Shown here one piece after another: positions 27,749 through 33,023 of a DNA stretch of 57,711 nt. Each line of letters opens with the position of its first letter. The stretch's first letter is position 1. Position numbers and translations under genes: made by a program. The notes under the pieces are model-generated. The model was not told where the DNA came from. It searched no databases and saw nothing but the letters and a program-made list of their open reading frames with translations. Source of the stretch: an uncultured Planctomyces sp. (lineage in GTDB: Bacteria > Planctomycetota > Planctomycetia > Planctomycetales > Planctomycetaceae); NCBI GenBank assembly GCA_937904325.1, contig CALGTK010000033.1:1-57711 (forward strand), in the 5' to 3' direction.

Positions 27749-28210
27749 TCAGGCGGATGGCTGCGGAGCCGTGGCGAATTGAACATTGTCGAAGCCGGCA
27801 GAGCGGCAGGTATCGAAAATGTCGATAAAATCTCCAACCGGAACGCCGTTATCAATGTCTAAAATCACTGGAATCTCCGGTGCGACACTGGCCAGCTCTC
27901 GAAGAGTACGTCGCAGACGATCCCAGTCATTGTACAACTGATTGTTAACTGTGGCCGTTGTAACCACTCCCTCACCTGAGCCACGTCTTGAAAGCCGAAC
28001 CCAGACTTCGCCAAGTGGCTCCGGAGATTCGACTGGATCAACAGACTCAATCGAACCAGCAGCCAAAGGCGTCGGCAGACTTGATTCGCGAATCTGTCCG
28101 ATCGATGCGCACACGAAAAAGATCAGCAGCAGAAACACTACGTCGATCATCGGTGTCATGAACGAGTCGTCATGCTCACGGCTCTGCTGATGTGAAACTG
28201 GTATTCGCAT
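27749..28210 (-). CDS. exbD: ExbD/TolR family biopolymer transport protein
   Basis: 153 residues: a short cytoplasmic start, one membrane helix with the conserved acidic residue (MTPMIDVVFLLLIFFVCASI), then a periplasmic domain ending with a VPVGDFIDIFDTCRSAG segment, the ExbD/TolR fold. It works with an ExbB/TolQ channel to turn the proton gradient into force on outer-membrane or envelope partners. It is the third gene of the operon, 47 bases after the other exbD. The extra periplasmic sequence around residues 50-70 (SIESVDPVESPEPLGE) distinguishes the two copies. Confidence 0.92.
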   Translation of the reverse strand: MRIPVSHQQSREHDDSFMTPMIDVVFLLLIFFVCASIGQIRESSLPTPLAAGSIESVDPVESPEPLGEVWVRLSRRGSGEGVVTTATVNNQLYNDWDRLRRTLRELASVAPEIPVILDIDNGVPVGDFIDIFDTCRSAGFDNVQFATAPQPSA

Positions 28211-28257
28211 TCAGGTGCTCAACAAAGCGCAGACAACATCGTCATACAAGGTCCGAC

Positions 28258-28680
28258 CTAAGACGACTTCGGTAAAACGGCAAAACCAACACGAGTCACT
28301 CCGAACTGGGCACACGCCAGAAGAATTGGCTCGACTTCCTGATACGTTGCGGCGTGGTCTGCTCGAATCCGAACCTCGACCTGATTCTGTGACTCCTGAG
28401 CCGCCGACAGAACTAACTGCTGGACCTGCGGCAGCAGCACTTGCCGCCCACCCACCCACATCGACCGGTCAGCCATCACCGTTATCACGATGCGAAGTGG
28501 CGATTCTTCGTCGTCGCCAGCGGGATCGACGACCTTTGGCAGATCAACAGGCTCAACAGCTTCGCTGCGGGCAACGTGGCTGGCCACCAGAAAGAAGATG
28601 ATCAGCAGGAAGACGATGTCGATCAACGAAGTCACGTTGAAACTGACCGATCGTGACCGTGTTATAGTCGGAGGCTTCAT
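28258..28680 (-). CDS. exbD: ExbD/TolR family biopolymer transport protein
   Basis: 140 residues with the single helix VTSLIDIVFLLIIFFLVASH, which contains the protonatable Asp, and a periplasmic domain ending VEPILLACAQFGVTRVGFA. The ATG overlaps the exbB stop by four bases (ATGA), so the two are translationally coupled. With its neighbour it gives two non-identical ExbD subunits for one ExbB, an arrangement also found in other bacteria with duplicated exbD genes. No TonB or outer-membrane receptor gene is in the window. Confidence 0.93.
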   Translation of the reverse strand: MKPPTITRSRSVSFNVTSLIDIVFLLIIFFLVASHVARSEAVEPVDLPKVVDPAGDDEESPLRIVITVMADRSMWVGGRQVLLPQVQQLVLSAAQESQNQVEVRIRADHAATYQEVEPILLACAQFGVTRVGFAVLPKSS

Positions 28681-29561
28681 GTCTGAGACCCCCGCTCCAT
28701 CGCGACCGACTGAACTCGCGGTGGCGACTCGACCGCTCGCTCTGAATTCCGATCCTGTTTCGCCCGCCCGCGTTCGCGCCTCGCCTGATCACGGCGAAAA
28801 TCTGCAAACACGTGTTCTGCCGTTAACGATGCTTCTGCAACGAGTTCATCGATGCGGTTTCGGAAGATAGCGAAGCTCGCAAACGCTGGCACAGCAACAG
28901 TCAATCCGAGCATCGTTGTTACGAGTGCACGGTAGATTCCCGGCGCGAGTTCGGATACTGCGGGATTTGCTTTCGCTTCAAACTCCATGAATGCCGTGAT
29001 CATGCCCCAGACTGTTCCCAGCAGACCGAGCATCGGCGCCAGAGTACCAATCAAATGAAGGTATTCGATCTTGCGAAACATCCGAGCGGCTTGTTCGGTC
29101 GCCGTATCCTCCATCGATTTCTCGACGTCCTTGTATCCGAGTTCGATCACAGAGAGCCCCGAAGCGAGCACATTGGAAAGAAAACACGGCTGCAGAGAAC
29201 ATTGCTGTTTCGCGTCCTCAATCTTTCGCTCAGACAGATGCTGATGCACGGCTTCCGCCAGCTCGCCTGGAATCAAAGTACTACGTCGGATACTCAGCAG
29301 ATGCTCGACCATCAGGTAGACCATCGACAGGCTGAGCGCGAAGATCAAACCACCAACCAACCCGCCCGTCCGTACAAGATCAAAGAAGCCGGTCTCGGCA
29401 CTTGCTGGTGGTCCTGATTCTTCGCCCTGCGCAAAAGCTGGCCCCGCGACCATTCCCAGCACGAGCAAAGCCAGGAGCGGCGGCGCAAACGTTCGGACCA
29501 TCGAGCCAACTGACGCTGCCCGCACTGCAGCAACGCCTTGATACCTTGCGTGAAGCATCAC
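28677..29561 (-). CDS. exbB: MotA/TolQ/ExbB proton channel with N-terminal signal peptide
   Basis: 294 residues. A leader (FAPPLLALLVLGMVAGPAFA) precedes the ExbB core, which then has a first helix GLIFALSLSMVYLMVEHLL and the paired helices LIGTLAPMLGLLGTVWGMI and ALVTTMLGLTVAVPAFASF that hold the TolQ/ExbB signature. The first codon is GTG at 29561; an ATG at 29501 would give a cleaner signal peptide and may be the true start. It should form the proton channel driven with the two ExbD proteins encoded directly downstream. The charged C-terminal tail after residue 255 is cytoplasmic. Confidence 0.92.
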   Translation of the reverse strand: MMLHARYQGVAAVRAASVGSMVRTFAPPLLALLVLGMVAGPAFAQGEESGPPASAETGFFDLVRTGGLVGGLIFALSLSMVYLMVEHLLSIRRSTLIPGELAEAVHQHLSERKIEDAKQQCSLQPCFLSNVLASGLSVIELGYKDVEKSMEDTATEQAARMFRKIEYLHLIGTLAPMLGLLGTVWGMITAFMEFEAKANPAVSELAPGIYRALVTTMLGLTVAVPAFASFAIFRNRIDELVAEASLTAEHVFADFRRDQARRERGRAKQDRNSERAVESPPRVQSVAMERGSQT

Positions 29562-29669
29562 GATTCTATCCCGACTTCATGTCTGAAATGTGTCAGATAA
29601 AGTTGTCGTCGCAGAGTTTAGGCCGGCACTCAATCTGGCGGAATCCCGGTCTGCTGACTCAAGCCGGAA

Positions 29670-30918
29670 CTACTGACGTAATTCGGGATGGATGTCCCGC
29701 CAGGATAACCCAAAACGCCCAAGCGACTTTTTAACGCTGTCGAAGTCGCTTGGCTGAGTCTTTGCGCGTCTGGATACAGCAAACAATCGCCGTCCGGCAT
29801 CCGGCATCGATCAGCACTCTTTGCAAACCTCGACTATCTTAGCAACCCCCGACTGATCGAACAGATCGATCTCTGCAAGCTGCTCTTCCGACAGCACGCT
29901 TTTCAAAACTTCGAACGACGAATCGCCACAGATTTCGGGCTGCGCATACTTCAGAGAGTTGACTTCGACATTCATGACGTCACCGCTGATCCGCCCTGAC
30001 GTTGCCAAAGTCACCATGCGTGTGATCGCCGAGTCCAGATCGAAAAATATTGTTTTCCAACGCATTTCTGCTGACTCAGTAAACTTCAAAACCCACCCTC
30101 TCGCTTAACGATTGAACGCCCTCGACGGCCGCCCGTTGATTCGAAGCGTTTCAACTCGCAGTCAACGTTCGACTCAAGAACCCACGCCGTTCAGGAAACA
30201 ATGGCCATAAGAATGTCCACAGATTGATCCTCGCCTGTAAGTTCTCACGAAATCGTCCATGCGGAATCTCCAATCACAAGTCGCGATTCATTCCCACAAT
30301 CAATTGCATATCACTTGAATTCACTTTTGCAGCAACGACTGGAAGTAATCATTTCTCTTCGACAGCTCGCAGAAGCATTGCCTGCTTGTCGGGTCCACCT
30401 CGCCGATCCCGTCAGGAAACAACGTCCAGCTATCAGCCGTTCGAAGCAGCCCATCGCGATTTTTCACCGCACCTGTGAATGCCATGGCCAAACAATGCCA
30501 AAATCGCCTGATCACCGTGGATGACGGCAAAGTTCAACGCGACGACCTTACCGGACACTCGCTGACGAAGCAGTTTCATTTCGAAGATTCGGCGATCGAC
30601 CTGACTCTTGCCCGCTCCGGTCAATAGAACTGGAGCATGGCTGTTAAGGGACATCTTCTCGATCTGATCAATCAGTCGATTAATTTTTCATACCGAGTCG
30701 CCATGCCACTCTTGAGAAACGAAACGCTTTTGTCTCGTTCAAGCTGAATCCGGAGCGTCAGTCAGTCGTAACGTGAAACATCAAAATCGATCCACCAGCA
30801 AGTGTTCGTGTTGACAGACCGAAACCGTTGGCCGCCACCGCCCCCATCATCGAGCGTTCGCTCCCGCATCAAGCTGCTGAACCGGCAGTCCACTCACCAC
30901 AGTCTTTCGTTACGCCAT
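29670..30918 (-). pseudogene. rtcR: rtcR pseudogene (sigma-54-dependent regulator of RNA repair)
   Basis: A full-length but broken copy, recovered by following minus-strand frames. N terminus (ATG 30918): KTVVSGLPVQQLDAG, stop, RWRPTVSVCQHEHLLVDRF (to 30784). Most of the CARF-like domain is deleted; text resumes IDFDVSRYD, stop, then SVSFLKSGMATRYEKLID. AAA+ domain: APVLLTGAGKSQVDRRIFEM (Walker A region, one Gly-Thr lost), SGKVVALNFAVIHGD, then after frameshifts AFTGAVKNRDGLLRTADS, FPDGIGEVDP, QAMLLRAVEEK, and VGMNRDL with GRFRENLQARINLWTF. C terminus: DLDSAITRMVTLATSGRI, EEQLAEIDLFDQ, stop, DAGRRLFAVSRRA and FGLSWRDI (stop 29670). A 92-codon frame at 29811-30089 is its tail, not a separate gene. 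Length is about 1,249 bp against roughly 1.6 kb for intact rtcR. Confidence 0.9.
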
Positions 30919-30956: not shown

Positions 30957-32681
30957 TTATCGCTGCCGTCGATATCGCGACAAACTGACAGAAACAGCGG
31001 ACGGTCGAGTCTGGGTCGTTCGCGATCCCGATGGTCTGCGGGTTTTCATTGATGTGGGCTGAACCTGATTCTCCACTTCGCTGGTCAGGTCTGAAACAAA
31101 CTGATTCGACGCTTTGTGGATAACGATGATCCGACTCGGACCATCCGGTTTGTTTCGATCTCTGATAACACAAACAACTTCCGCTCCACGAGCGGCTTCC
31201 AGATCGTCACGAAGTAATTCAACATTCGGACTGACGAATGGGCGTCCTGATGGCTCAGCAACAGATTCACAATTTGCAGAAGAAGCATCAACGGGCGTTC
31301 CCGGCGACAACTGCCTAACCATCGCCAGCACGCCTGCAAACGCGGCGGGTGTTTTCACACCTTGCTCATGATTGCCCGGCAGAAGCTCTGACGGCAAATC
31401 CACTGGCGCCGCAACGGTCCCGAAAGTATCCGATTCAAAGTCCGGCTCGACAAACGAAGGAAGCCCATGCTCGCTGGTCGCGATTTGAGTTCCAATCGTT
31501 GCCTCAAAATCATCGTGCTCGTTGTCGGTTTCCGCGACGAAAAGCCGTTCACCGACTTCCGCAGCATGTCGGTAAATTGATTGCAACCCGCAGCGATCGA
31601 GTAATGCATGAATCGTTTCGAGGCTTGTGTAGAGCCCTCGCCGTGCTGCCGGATCGGCCAGGACACACACGCCAGATACTTCGCCGTTGACGTTGAAGAG
31701 TCCACCACCCGACCGTCCCTGAATCGGAGTCCCTGTACACTCAATATAGCCAGCGGGAAACTTCGTCGTTGACGTAACTCGATGCTGCAACTTCGATGGC
31801 GGCTCACCACCGCCGCAGCCAACGCTGAACACGAGCTGTCCTGAATTCAGCGACTGTCGAGCGACTCTTGACGCGGCCAGCGTCTCCAGCGTCGAAATCG
31901 AGATCAACCCGACGTCGGCCTTCAAGTCGAACTTGACCAGCTCACCGTCGTACATCCTGGGTCGTTCCCCCTGAAAAACGTCAACCTCGATCATGCCCGA
32001 GTCGTCGAAGTGTCGAAAGATATGCCCGCAGGTCAGAATCAAAGTCCGCCCGGGTTCGCTATGAATGATCGTGCCCGATCCAATGTCCATCCCGCTGGAA
32101 TCTTTGACACGTATTCGAGTACAGACCTGCATCGGATCACGAGTGAACTCAGGCGTCAAAGTTTCTCCGATATTTGCCCTCACAACCTCAGCCGCAGAAG
32201 GACGTGGCGGGCCACTTGCTTCGGCAGGATCTGACGTGGACTGCCCAGTGAAAGCCGCTCCTAGTTTTTCGATCAAACTGACCTTTTCACGGGCTGGATC
32301 ACGCCGGGAATCGATATCTGCGACAAACAGGGGCTGAGTCGGGACACTCCGCGGCGCTGCGGATTTCACAGGGATCATCGACGCCATCCGCCGAAGCTGA
32401 GCCTCGCTCAGAATCCCAGTGTACCGCTGCTGCTCCTGCCCTTTCACGATCAGCACGAACGTTGGCATGTGAGAAATGTTGAACCGCTGCGCAAGCGCGG
32501 GCTGACGATCCACGTCGACCGTTCGAATGGCGTAACCTTGGTTCTGAAGCCGTTGCACGACCGGCATCACCTGCTGACAGGGGCCGCACCATGACGCAGA
32601 AAAATCAAGCACCACACCATCCGGAGTTCCCCCGACAGCCGCGAGAGCAAAAACCAGACCGCTCAACCCTGACATGCACAA
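30957..32681 (-). CDS. Thioredoxin domain fused to trypsin-like serine protease
   Basis: 574 residues. A short leader is followed by a thioredoxin domain, with VVLDFSASWCGPCQQVMPVV (Cys32 and Cys35) and the cis-Pro segment SHMPTFVLIVKG. After a linker near residues 120-175 comes a chymotrypsin-fold protease: His in ILTCGHIFRHF, Asp in LKADVGLISI and Ser in QGRSGGGLFNV, giving a complete triad. The last 170 residues are low in pattern and end in a basic Arg/Ser-rich tail. It should act in the periplasm; joining redox and protease modules suggests quality control of disulfide-containing proteins, an inference only. The rtcR pseudogene begins 39 bases downstream. Confidence 0.88.
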   Translation of the reverse strand: MCMSGLSGLVFALAAVGGTPDGVVLDFSASWCGPCQQVMPVVQRLQNQGYAIRTVDVDRQPALAQRFNISHMPTFVLIVKGQEQQRYTGILSEAQLRRMASMIPVKSAAPRSVPTQPLFVADIDSRRDPAREKVSLIEKLGAAFTGQSTSDPAEASGPPRPSAAEVVRANIGETLTPEFTRDPMQVCTRIRVKDSSGMDIGSGTIIHSEPGRTLILTCGHIFRHFDDSGMIEVDVFQGERPRMYDGELVKFDLKADVGLISISTLETLAASRVARQSLNSGQLVFSVGCGGGEPPSKLQHRVTSTTKFPAGYIECTGTPIQGRSGGGLFNVNGEVSGVCVLADPAARRGLYTSLETIHALLDRCGLQSIYRHAAEVGERLFVAETDNEHDDFEATIGTQIATSEHGLPSFVEPDFESDTFGTVAAPVDLPSELLPGNHEQGVKTPAAFAGVLAMVRQLSPGTPVDASSANCESVAEPSGRPFVSPNVELLRDDLEAARGAEVVCVIRDRNKPDGPSRIIVIHKASNQFVSDLTSEVENQVQPTSMKTRRPSGSRTTQTRPSAVSVSLSRYRRQR

Positions 32682-33023
32682 TCTCCGTCCCTGGAGTCTT
32701 TGTAAGTCTTACAACGCCACTATGCCGCATTCTGCAAAACGTCCAACGAACCGGGCTCGAAAACCCGACTTTTGAACATCTACCTGATGATCCGACGCTC
32801 GTAGCATAAACCGGACCAAACGAAACTCCCGGTGTTCGTTGAGACTTGAGTGACGCCACTGACAATCGCGCAGCCTCGGAATTACACTGCTTCGAAAGTA
32901 CCCTTCACGGAGTTACTCTCAACGAGTAAAGACAACGAATCAGCACGAAGACACGCACATCCGGCTTCCCAATTGATGACGAACCCATCTTCGCTTAATG
33001 AATGTCAGCCTGGTCCGATCAAA

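Follow-up and report, generated by a model that had tools for sequence, protein, structure and literature searches.

A thioredoxin joined to an HtrA-type protease domain in one polypeptide across much of a bacterial class

In this study we describe a protein family in which an HtrA-type protease domain carries a thioredoxin in place of a PDZ domain, an arrangement of which we found no account in the full-text literature searched. By the genome sequences the fusion is real and is conserved across much of one bacterial class. The gene under study lies in a 57,711-nucleotide stretch of DNA from an uncultured Planctomyces sp., hereafter called the window. Residues are numbered throughout from the ATG at 32675, giving 572 amino acids, and the features of the gene and its product are as follows.

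30957..32675, minus strand: whole gene, 572 amino acids from ATG, stop included
32683..32690, minus strand: putative Shine-Dalgarno-like GGACGGAG, 7 nt upstream of the ATG (direct reading)
32619..32675, minus strand: N-terminal hydrophobic stretch (residues 1-19), likely a signal peptide or an anchor (hydropathy)
32370..32618, minus strand: thioredoxin domain, residues 20-102 (Pfam PF00085; pLDDT ~96; order of strands and helices)
32577..32588, minus strand: CGPC, residues 30-33 (conservation)
32145..32369, minus strand: variable linker, residues 103-177 (mostly pLDDT <60; low conservation)
31560..32144, minus strand: HtrA-type protease domain, residues 178-372 (Pfam PF13365; pLDDT ~95; VIA-align)
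32028..32030, minus strand: Cys216, two residues before His218 (TCGH; alignments)
32022..32024, minus strand: catalytic His218 (81/81 members)
31914..31916, minus strand: catalytic Asp254 (81/81 members)
31815..31817, minus strand: Cys287 (VGC; alignments)
31737..31739, minus strand: Cys313, a frequent fourth protease cysteine (125/190)
31710..31712, minus strand: catalytic Ser322 (GRSGGG; 81/81 members)
31665..31667, minus strand: Cys337 (GVC), third protease cysteine (189/190; exception L024)
31206..31559, minus strand: variable linker, residues 373-490 (pLDDT mostly <50; dN/dS 0.23-0.39)
31056..31205, minus strand: conserved beta-beta-alpha module, residues 491-540 (pLDDT ~90 over most of it; dN/dS 0.04-0.13)
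30960..31055, minus strand: Arg/Ser-rich end, residues 541-572, finishing RYRRQR (47% Arg+Ser)

The frame is open for 574 amino acids from a TTG at 32681 (30957..32681, minus strand). The ATG at 32675 is the more likely start, because the Shine-Dalgarno-like motif stands 7 nt upstream of it and because the genus orthologues L002-L005 each have a methionine in the same alignment column. The best 11-residue hydropathy at the N-terminus of the window protein is 2.4, and 186 of the 189 family members examined reach at least 1.6, a threshold of our own choice, ahead of the thioredoxin. Judged by hydropathy, the fusion protein is probably exported.

To assess the distribution of the fusion, several sets of genomes were searched. 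Within the genus, four full-length orthologues were found, 66-82% identical. When one genome of each GTDB species was scanned with patterns of this family, 401 pattern matches resulted, of which 244 were relatives, and the best 80 were kept; their titles name planctomycetes or leave the bacterium unspecified, and they include the isolate Thalassoglobus neptunius KOR42 (L074). A CxxC thioredoxin and a GRSGGG protease shared one open reading frame in all 80 loci read (L097 through a second frame), and both domains were likewise found in 110 of 110 frames of a further class set, one of them truncated in the thioredoxin by a contig end. This second set comprises 80 fetched class members and 30 class-scan loci and overlaps in species with the 80-locus set. 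At E<=1e-25, the family alignment found a match in 178 of the 248 class genomes sampled; among the 70 misses, the 20 listed belong to families f3, f4 and f72. In the phylum scan, which took in 147 genomes, only the family and class of the window gave strong matches, and those outside the class were weak (best E 2.8e-10) and HtrA-like. The species scan used patterns of this family, so that the survey speaks for this family and, in the phylum, for the 147 genomes scanned.

A sequence-only reading of the window had proposed a CGPC thioredoxin and a protease within a single polypeptide, and it is upheld by the Pfam matches given below and by the 80 loci with both domains in one frame. That reading had also called for a check of phylogenetic distribution, which the 178 class genomes now answer. 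Its first worry, that faulty assembly or sequencing had run two separate genes together, is next to inconceivable given the recurrence in 80/80 and 110/110 loci and the purifying selection described below. Its other worry, that the fusion might be widespread and already characterised, was half justified: the family is widespread in one class, and no paper on a thioredoxin-HtrA fusion was found in the full-text literature, most subscription journals being outside its coverage. Protein databases probably annotate both domains automatically.

The thioredoxin domain matches Pfam PF00085 over residues 22-99 (E 5e-18, 65.3 bits against a gathering cut-off of 23.5) and has C30, C33 and P71, which makes it a member of the Thioredoxin family; the remaining Pfam rows are weaker matches of other thioredoxin-like families to the same residues. 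Both CGPC cysteines are present in 81 of 81 aligned members (the window and 80 others). When the genus, species-scan and class sets were pooled into 190 distinct proteins (191 less one partial), both CxxC cysteines were found in 189, the last being cut by a contig end. The cis-proline, Pro71, is invariant in both collections (81/81 and 190/190). In the AlphaFold model, the domain is a minimal fold that begins at the strand before CGPC; canonical thioredoxins have a first strand and helix ahead of it, and both are absent here. The domain also scored 66 bits against the curated cut-off of 96.8 for the TrxA equivalog (TIGR01068) and is thus not a canonical TrxA. The same genome holds one DsbD_TM gene.

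The protease domain matches Trypsin_2 (PF13365) over residues 201-338 (E 3e-16, 60.8 bits against a gathering cut-off of 27.6) and has the full His-Asp-Ser triad that the earlier reading had named, identified here as His218-Asp254-Ser322, so that it belongs to this Pfam family. The invariance of Ser322 is partly a product of selection, because the GRSGGG motif was part of the species-scan patterns and of a later filter; the cysteines were in neither. Foldseek and VIA-align both placed the domain among DegP, DegS, DegQ, HtrA1 and others, in agreement with an HtrA-type chymotrypsin fold. The 50 VIA-align rows listed (Z 22.9-24.3, rmsd 2.1-3.3, identity 16-25%) were filled by proteases and bear on this domain, not on the thioredoxin. 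No PDZ domain was detected by Pfam in the whole protein (E<=1) or in its C-terminal 163 residues (E<=0.01). The definition of HtrA/Deg includes a C-terminal PDZ domain, and the protein is therefore not a canonical HtrA. It is not a member of the Do subfamily either (TIGR02037, 35 bits against a curated cut-off of 416.2).

We then considered the remainder of the polypeptide. AlphaFold, with 77 aligned sequences as input (alignment A3 omits 4 of the 80 species-scan loci as near-copies or for their length), was confident for the thioredoxin (20-102), the protease (178-372) and a beta-beta-alpha unit (~491-540), and mostly of low confidence in the linkers. The pTM of 0.48 gives no relative placement of the domains, and contacts between CGPC and the protease are unreadable. 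The linker noted earlier between thioredoxin and protease occupies residues 103-177. In genus comparisons, dN/dS was 0.05-0.11 for the thioredoxin (four comparisons) and 0.02-0.03 for the protease (the three comparisons with estimable dS), while the tail, at 0.25-0.53, lay above both of these and above the C-terminal module; some of the comparisons, above all those of the first linker, suffer from saturation at synonymous sites. By these ratios the thioredoxin, the protease and the C-terminal module are under purifying selection. A profile of the module matched 77 of the 110 class members at E<=1, and no Pfam family matched the C-terminal 163 residues that include it at E<=0.01. C502 is found in 62 of 81 aligned members. 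The module had escaped the earlier reading, as had C216, C287 and the nearly invariant C337. The long Arg/Ser-rich tail described there shrinks to the last 32 residues; the rest is mostly ordinary linker, with 18.5% Arg+Ser over the whole post-protease region (373-572) against 17% for the entire protein. Of 181 members, 45 have an R[YF]xR motif among their final 25 residues, where shuffled sequences would lead one to expect 3.3.

The protease cysteines set the family apart from the Trypsin_2 domains used as controls. C216, C287 and C337 each occur in 81 of 81 aligned members and C313 in 67; alignment A1 omits L003, L019, L024 and L026 from the first 30 loci, L024 being the one that lacks C337. 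C216 and C287 are present together in all 189 distinct members that have the catalytic His and Ser. The complete set of CxxC, triad and cysteine pair was found in 187 of the 190 proteins. Of the other three, one has Glu in place of Asp254 and retains the pair, one meets a contig end before CxxC with triad and pair present, and one (L268) has lost His, Ser, C216 and C287.

As controls, we used 69 Trypsin_2 domains in 68 reading frames (66 distinct), from 70 loci of which 68 had a protease match: 30 found by searching 30 phylum genomes with Pfam, 20 from the phylum scan and 20 from regions of our choosing. No control frame matched the family thioredoxin profile at E<=1. C216 and C287 occur jointly in none of the 69 domains, among which L177 is gapped at 216 and two are degenerate domains of L188; cysteine stands at 216 alone in four and at 287 alone in five. 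The commonest control residue at 216, 287 and 337 is Asn. L187, L189 and L190, the closest relatives that lack the fusion and retain a full triad, all show Ala at position 216, and at 287 they show Val, Ile and Phe. Outside the class, four HtrA-like loci (L154, L157, L158 and L170) have two CxxC pairs per reading frame, TCPFC and a second one, perhaps forming a zinc ribbon. In marine trypsin-like proteases, selenocysteine was predicted at a conserved cysteine position, for which passages of PMC2398784 suggest a redox site.

Natural losses of these residues were then placed on trees. The cysteine pair was lost jointly in two lineages, each with decayed catalytic residues. In two species of genus g62, represented by L268/L149 (G116) and L150 (G130), the catalytic His is replaced by Ser or Ala and Ser322 by Cys, and C216/C287 are gone; the thioredoxin CxxC, C313 and C337 are retained. 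In family f2, ECF sigma factors bear one or two degenerate copies of the family's protease, nested in the thioredoxin-protease clade and without thioredoxin. Sigma70_r2 and r4_2 were matched by Pfam in L188/L302 (G038:C1) and L329 (G291:C4), and L331 (G306:C456) was recognised as a sigma factor by eye. Among these domains, L188a lacks the Asp, L329 the His, and L188b and, as aligned, L331 the whole triad. All four have lost C216 and C287; C313 and C337 are retained in L188 and L329 and absent from L331. The grouping of the sigma-fused copies as a single lineage has weak support (0.74, and 90/40 in IQ-TREE), L331 being a long branch. These domains seem, from their residues, to represent an enzyme turned sensor. 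A literature search returned nothing on an ECF sigma-HtrA-like fusion among the matches listed.

A further case is L330 (G295:C16), a 356-amino-acid protein with no thioredoxin in its reading frame that keeps the triad, C216, C287, C313 and C337; the same genome holds a third copy, L332. L330 contradicts a strict coupling of the cysteine pair to a thioredoxin in cis. The modules are separable, because L330 looks active without a thioredoxin and g62 keeps the thioredoxin beside a dead protease. In the alignments, what the pair accompanies is catalytic competence of a protease in the family clade, not a thioredoxin in cis. The best IQ-TREE tree shows the family as one clade with L187/L189/L190 as sister, at a support (77/85) that is not decisive; a nested position of these three is not rejected (p-AU 0.197), and FastTree grouped them with six fused members at a support of 0.41. 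Were they nested, they would represent a third joint loss of the pair, together with the thioredoxin and with the triad kept. With the family as one clade in the best tree, the contrast in cysteines between family and controls amounts to about one evolutionary event, to which the joint losses add two.

The gene environment could give clues regarding function. Across 81 loci, no conserved operon partner was found for the family as a whole, and each neighbour cluster occurs in only part of it. The widest comprise a ~400-amino-acid protein without a Pfam family (16/81 loci) and a CcsBA-like protein of ~1240 amino acids (13/81); the one example tested contains Cytochrom_C_asm and ResB domains. At one locus they lie as follows.

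L056:30-3752, minus strand: gene of the CcsBA-like protein
L056:3816-5045, minus strand: gene of the ~400-amino-acid protein

Both are mostly divergent from the thioredoxin-protease gene. A CcsBA-like gene lies about 5 kb away (within 6 kb) in 15 of 50 genomes, which were hand-picked, mostly for few contigs, and in which pairs on separate contigs were scored as not close. This proximity was seen in 4 of 26 genera (g61, g19, g14 and g8), all in family f1 (4/13 genera, against 0/13 elsewhere). It is above chance, given one such long gene per multi-Mb genome, and may be inherited gene order. No CcsBA-like gene was seen near the gene in the window, where 13.7 kb were examined. In the window, ExbB/ExbD-like genes (named by eye) and a 92-amino-acid frame follow the gene on the same strand (27749-30089, minus); L031, L032, L033 and L034 each contribute one gene to the cluster of the ExbB-like gene. 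According to PMC5742617, apocytochromes c are degraded by DegP and depend for their thiol state on DsbA and CcmG/CcdA. This makes apocytochromes reasonable candidate clients and nothing firmer, and cysteine-rich apocytochromes c as the client class of this family would be a weakly supported proposal.

Our preferred reading, which we put a little short of an even chance, is that of an exported enzyme of quality control, which would first reduce cysteine-containing envelope clients and then cut them. After export, the thioredoxin would be recharged by a DsbD-type membrane reductase and would reduce disulphides in envelope clients, opening them or holding them open; the tethered protease, without PDZ, would cut the client when misfolded. 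The thioredoxin would serve as substrate adaptor instead of PDZ, and could hold Cys216/Cys287 of the protease on the same chain reduced, or reset them. We favour reduction followed by cleavage because the thioredoxin outlives the protease in g62, where the retention of both its cysteines suggests targets beyond the protease's own pair, and because a thioredoxin/Deg precedent exists in vitro. According to PMC3446894, the Deg protease HhoA accepts PsbO as a substrate after its reduction by thioredoxin; the paper also cites work that saw no degradation of mature PsbO by Deg1 in vivo. Against this reading stands L330, which looks active without a thioredoxin, so that the family's protease apparently functions on its own. 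The strict conservation of C216/C287 is not required by this model.

The earlier reading had suggested that the redox state of a client or of the enzyme itself could control cleavage, and for the second of these the cysteine pair beside the catalytic His is a concrete candidate. The presence of the pair in 189/189 members with His and Ser against 0/69 controls would suit a redox-gated protease, in which a disulphide or dithiol at C216/C287 switches activity and the fused thioredoxin is a built-in reductase. So would the joint loss of the pair in two triad-decayed lineages, with C337 kept in L268/L149, L150, L188 and L329, and so would Arabidopsis Deg1, cited in passages of PMC3446894 as redox regulated and, with Deg5, as forming mixed disulphides with thioredoxin. 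However, passages of the same paper hold that the Deg proteases of Synechocystis are themselves not under thioredoxin control, the association of pair and fusion is near a single event (clade support 77/85; p-AU 0.197 for nesting), the pair tracks catalysis and not thioredoxin (L330; L268/L149, L150), and an alternative bond with C337 is possible. We regard such gating as possible but less probable than our preferred reading. A self-contained gated protease that ties envelope cleavage to electrons of a membrane reductase, with some descendants acting as a sensor on ECF sigma factors, would be a bolder version of it and slightly less probable still. C216-C287 could also be a permanent stabilising disulphide and the thioredoxin no more than a tethered neighbour, there to help form that bond or to do other work in the envelope. 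Retention of the pair in the thioredoxin-less L330 and its loss only alongside catalytic residues are consistent with such a bond, and the long, variable, disordered linkers with a loose tether, but the thioredoxin active site and the protease are conserved as a unit in the members examined of a family found in 178/248 sampled genomes, and related HtrA domains do without C216/C287. We find this unlikely.

Whichever reading holds, a class-wide, thioredoxin-bearing HtrA branch with a cysteine pair by the catalytic His offers a compact test system for the coupling of disulphides and proteolysis, for which we found precedents only among separate proteins. The family also gives a handle on planctomycete envelope biology.

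HtrA proteases are standard quality-control enzymes of the envelope and usually recognise their clients through PDZ. The window protein shares with DegP, DegS, DegQ and HtrA1 the protease fold, the His-Asp-Ser triad and, as inferred here, an extracytoplasmic site, and differs from them in the N-terminal thioredoxin and in that no PDZ was found. The family has GRSGG where most control proteases have GNSGG, and its cysteine positions hold mostly Asn or Ser in the controls. With TrxA, the thioredoxin shares CGPC and the cis-proline, and it differs from TrxA in lacking the first strand and helix, in being fused and, probably, in being exported. MarP (Rv3671c) has a regulatory disulphide and, to our knowledge, no thioredoxin; this trypsin-like protease is among the structural matches (3k6y, Z 23.4, VIA-align), and the window protein is not a member of its family (NF033740, 19 bits against a curated cut-off of 250; NCBIfam). 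ResA/CcsX of cytochrome c system II also has an exported thioredoxin-like domain, with no protease that we know of; the likeness extends to the CcsBA-like gene near the family gene in four genera, and membership of ResA was rejected (NF002854, 26.6 bits against a curated cut-off of 170; NCBIfam). The plant proteases Deg1 and Deg5, in the accounts cited in PMC3446894, are Deg proteases that are thioredoxin targets, but in trans. In the HhoA/PsbO case, as given in passages of that paper, reduction by thioredoxin renders a client degradable by a Deg protease, as proposed here; there thioredoxin and protease are separate proteins in vitro, whereas the window protein, known from its sequence, unites the two in one polypeptide.
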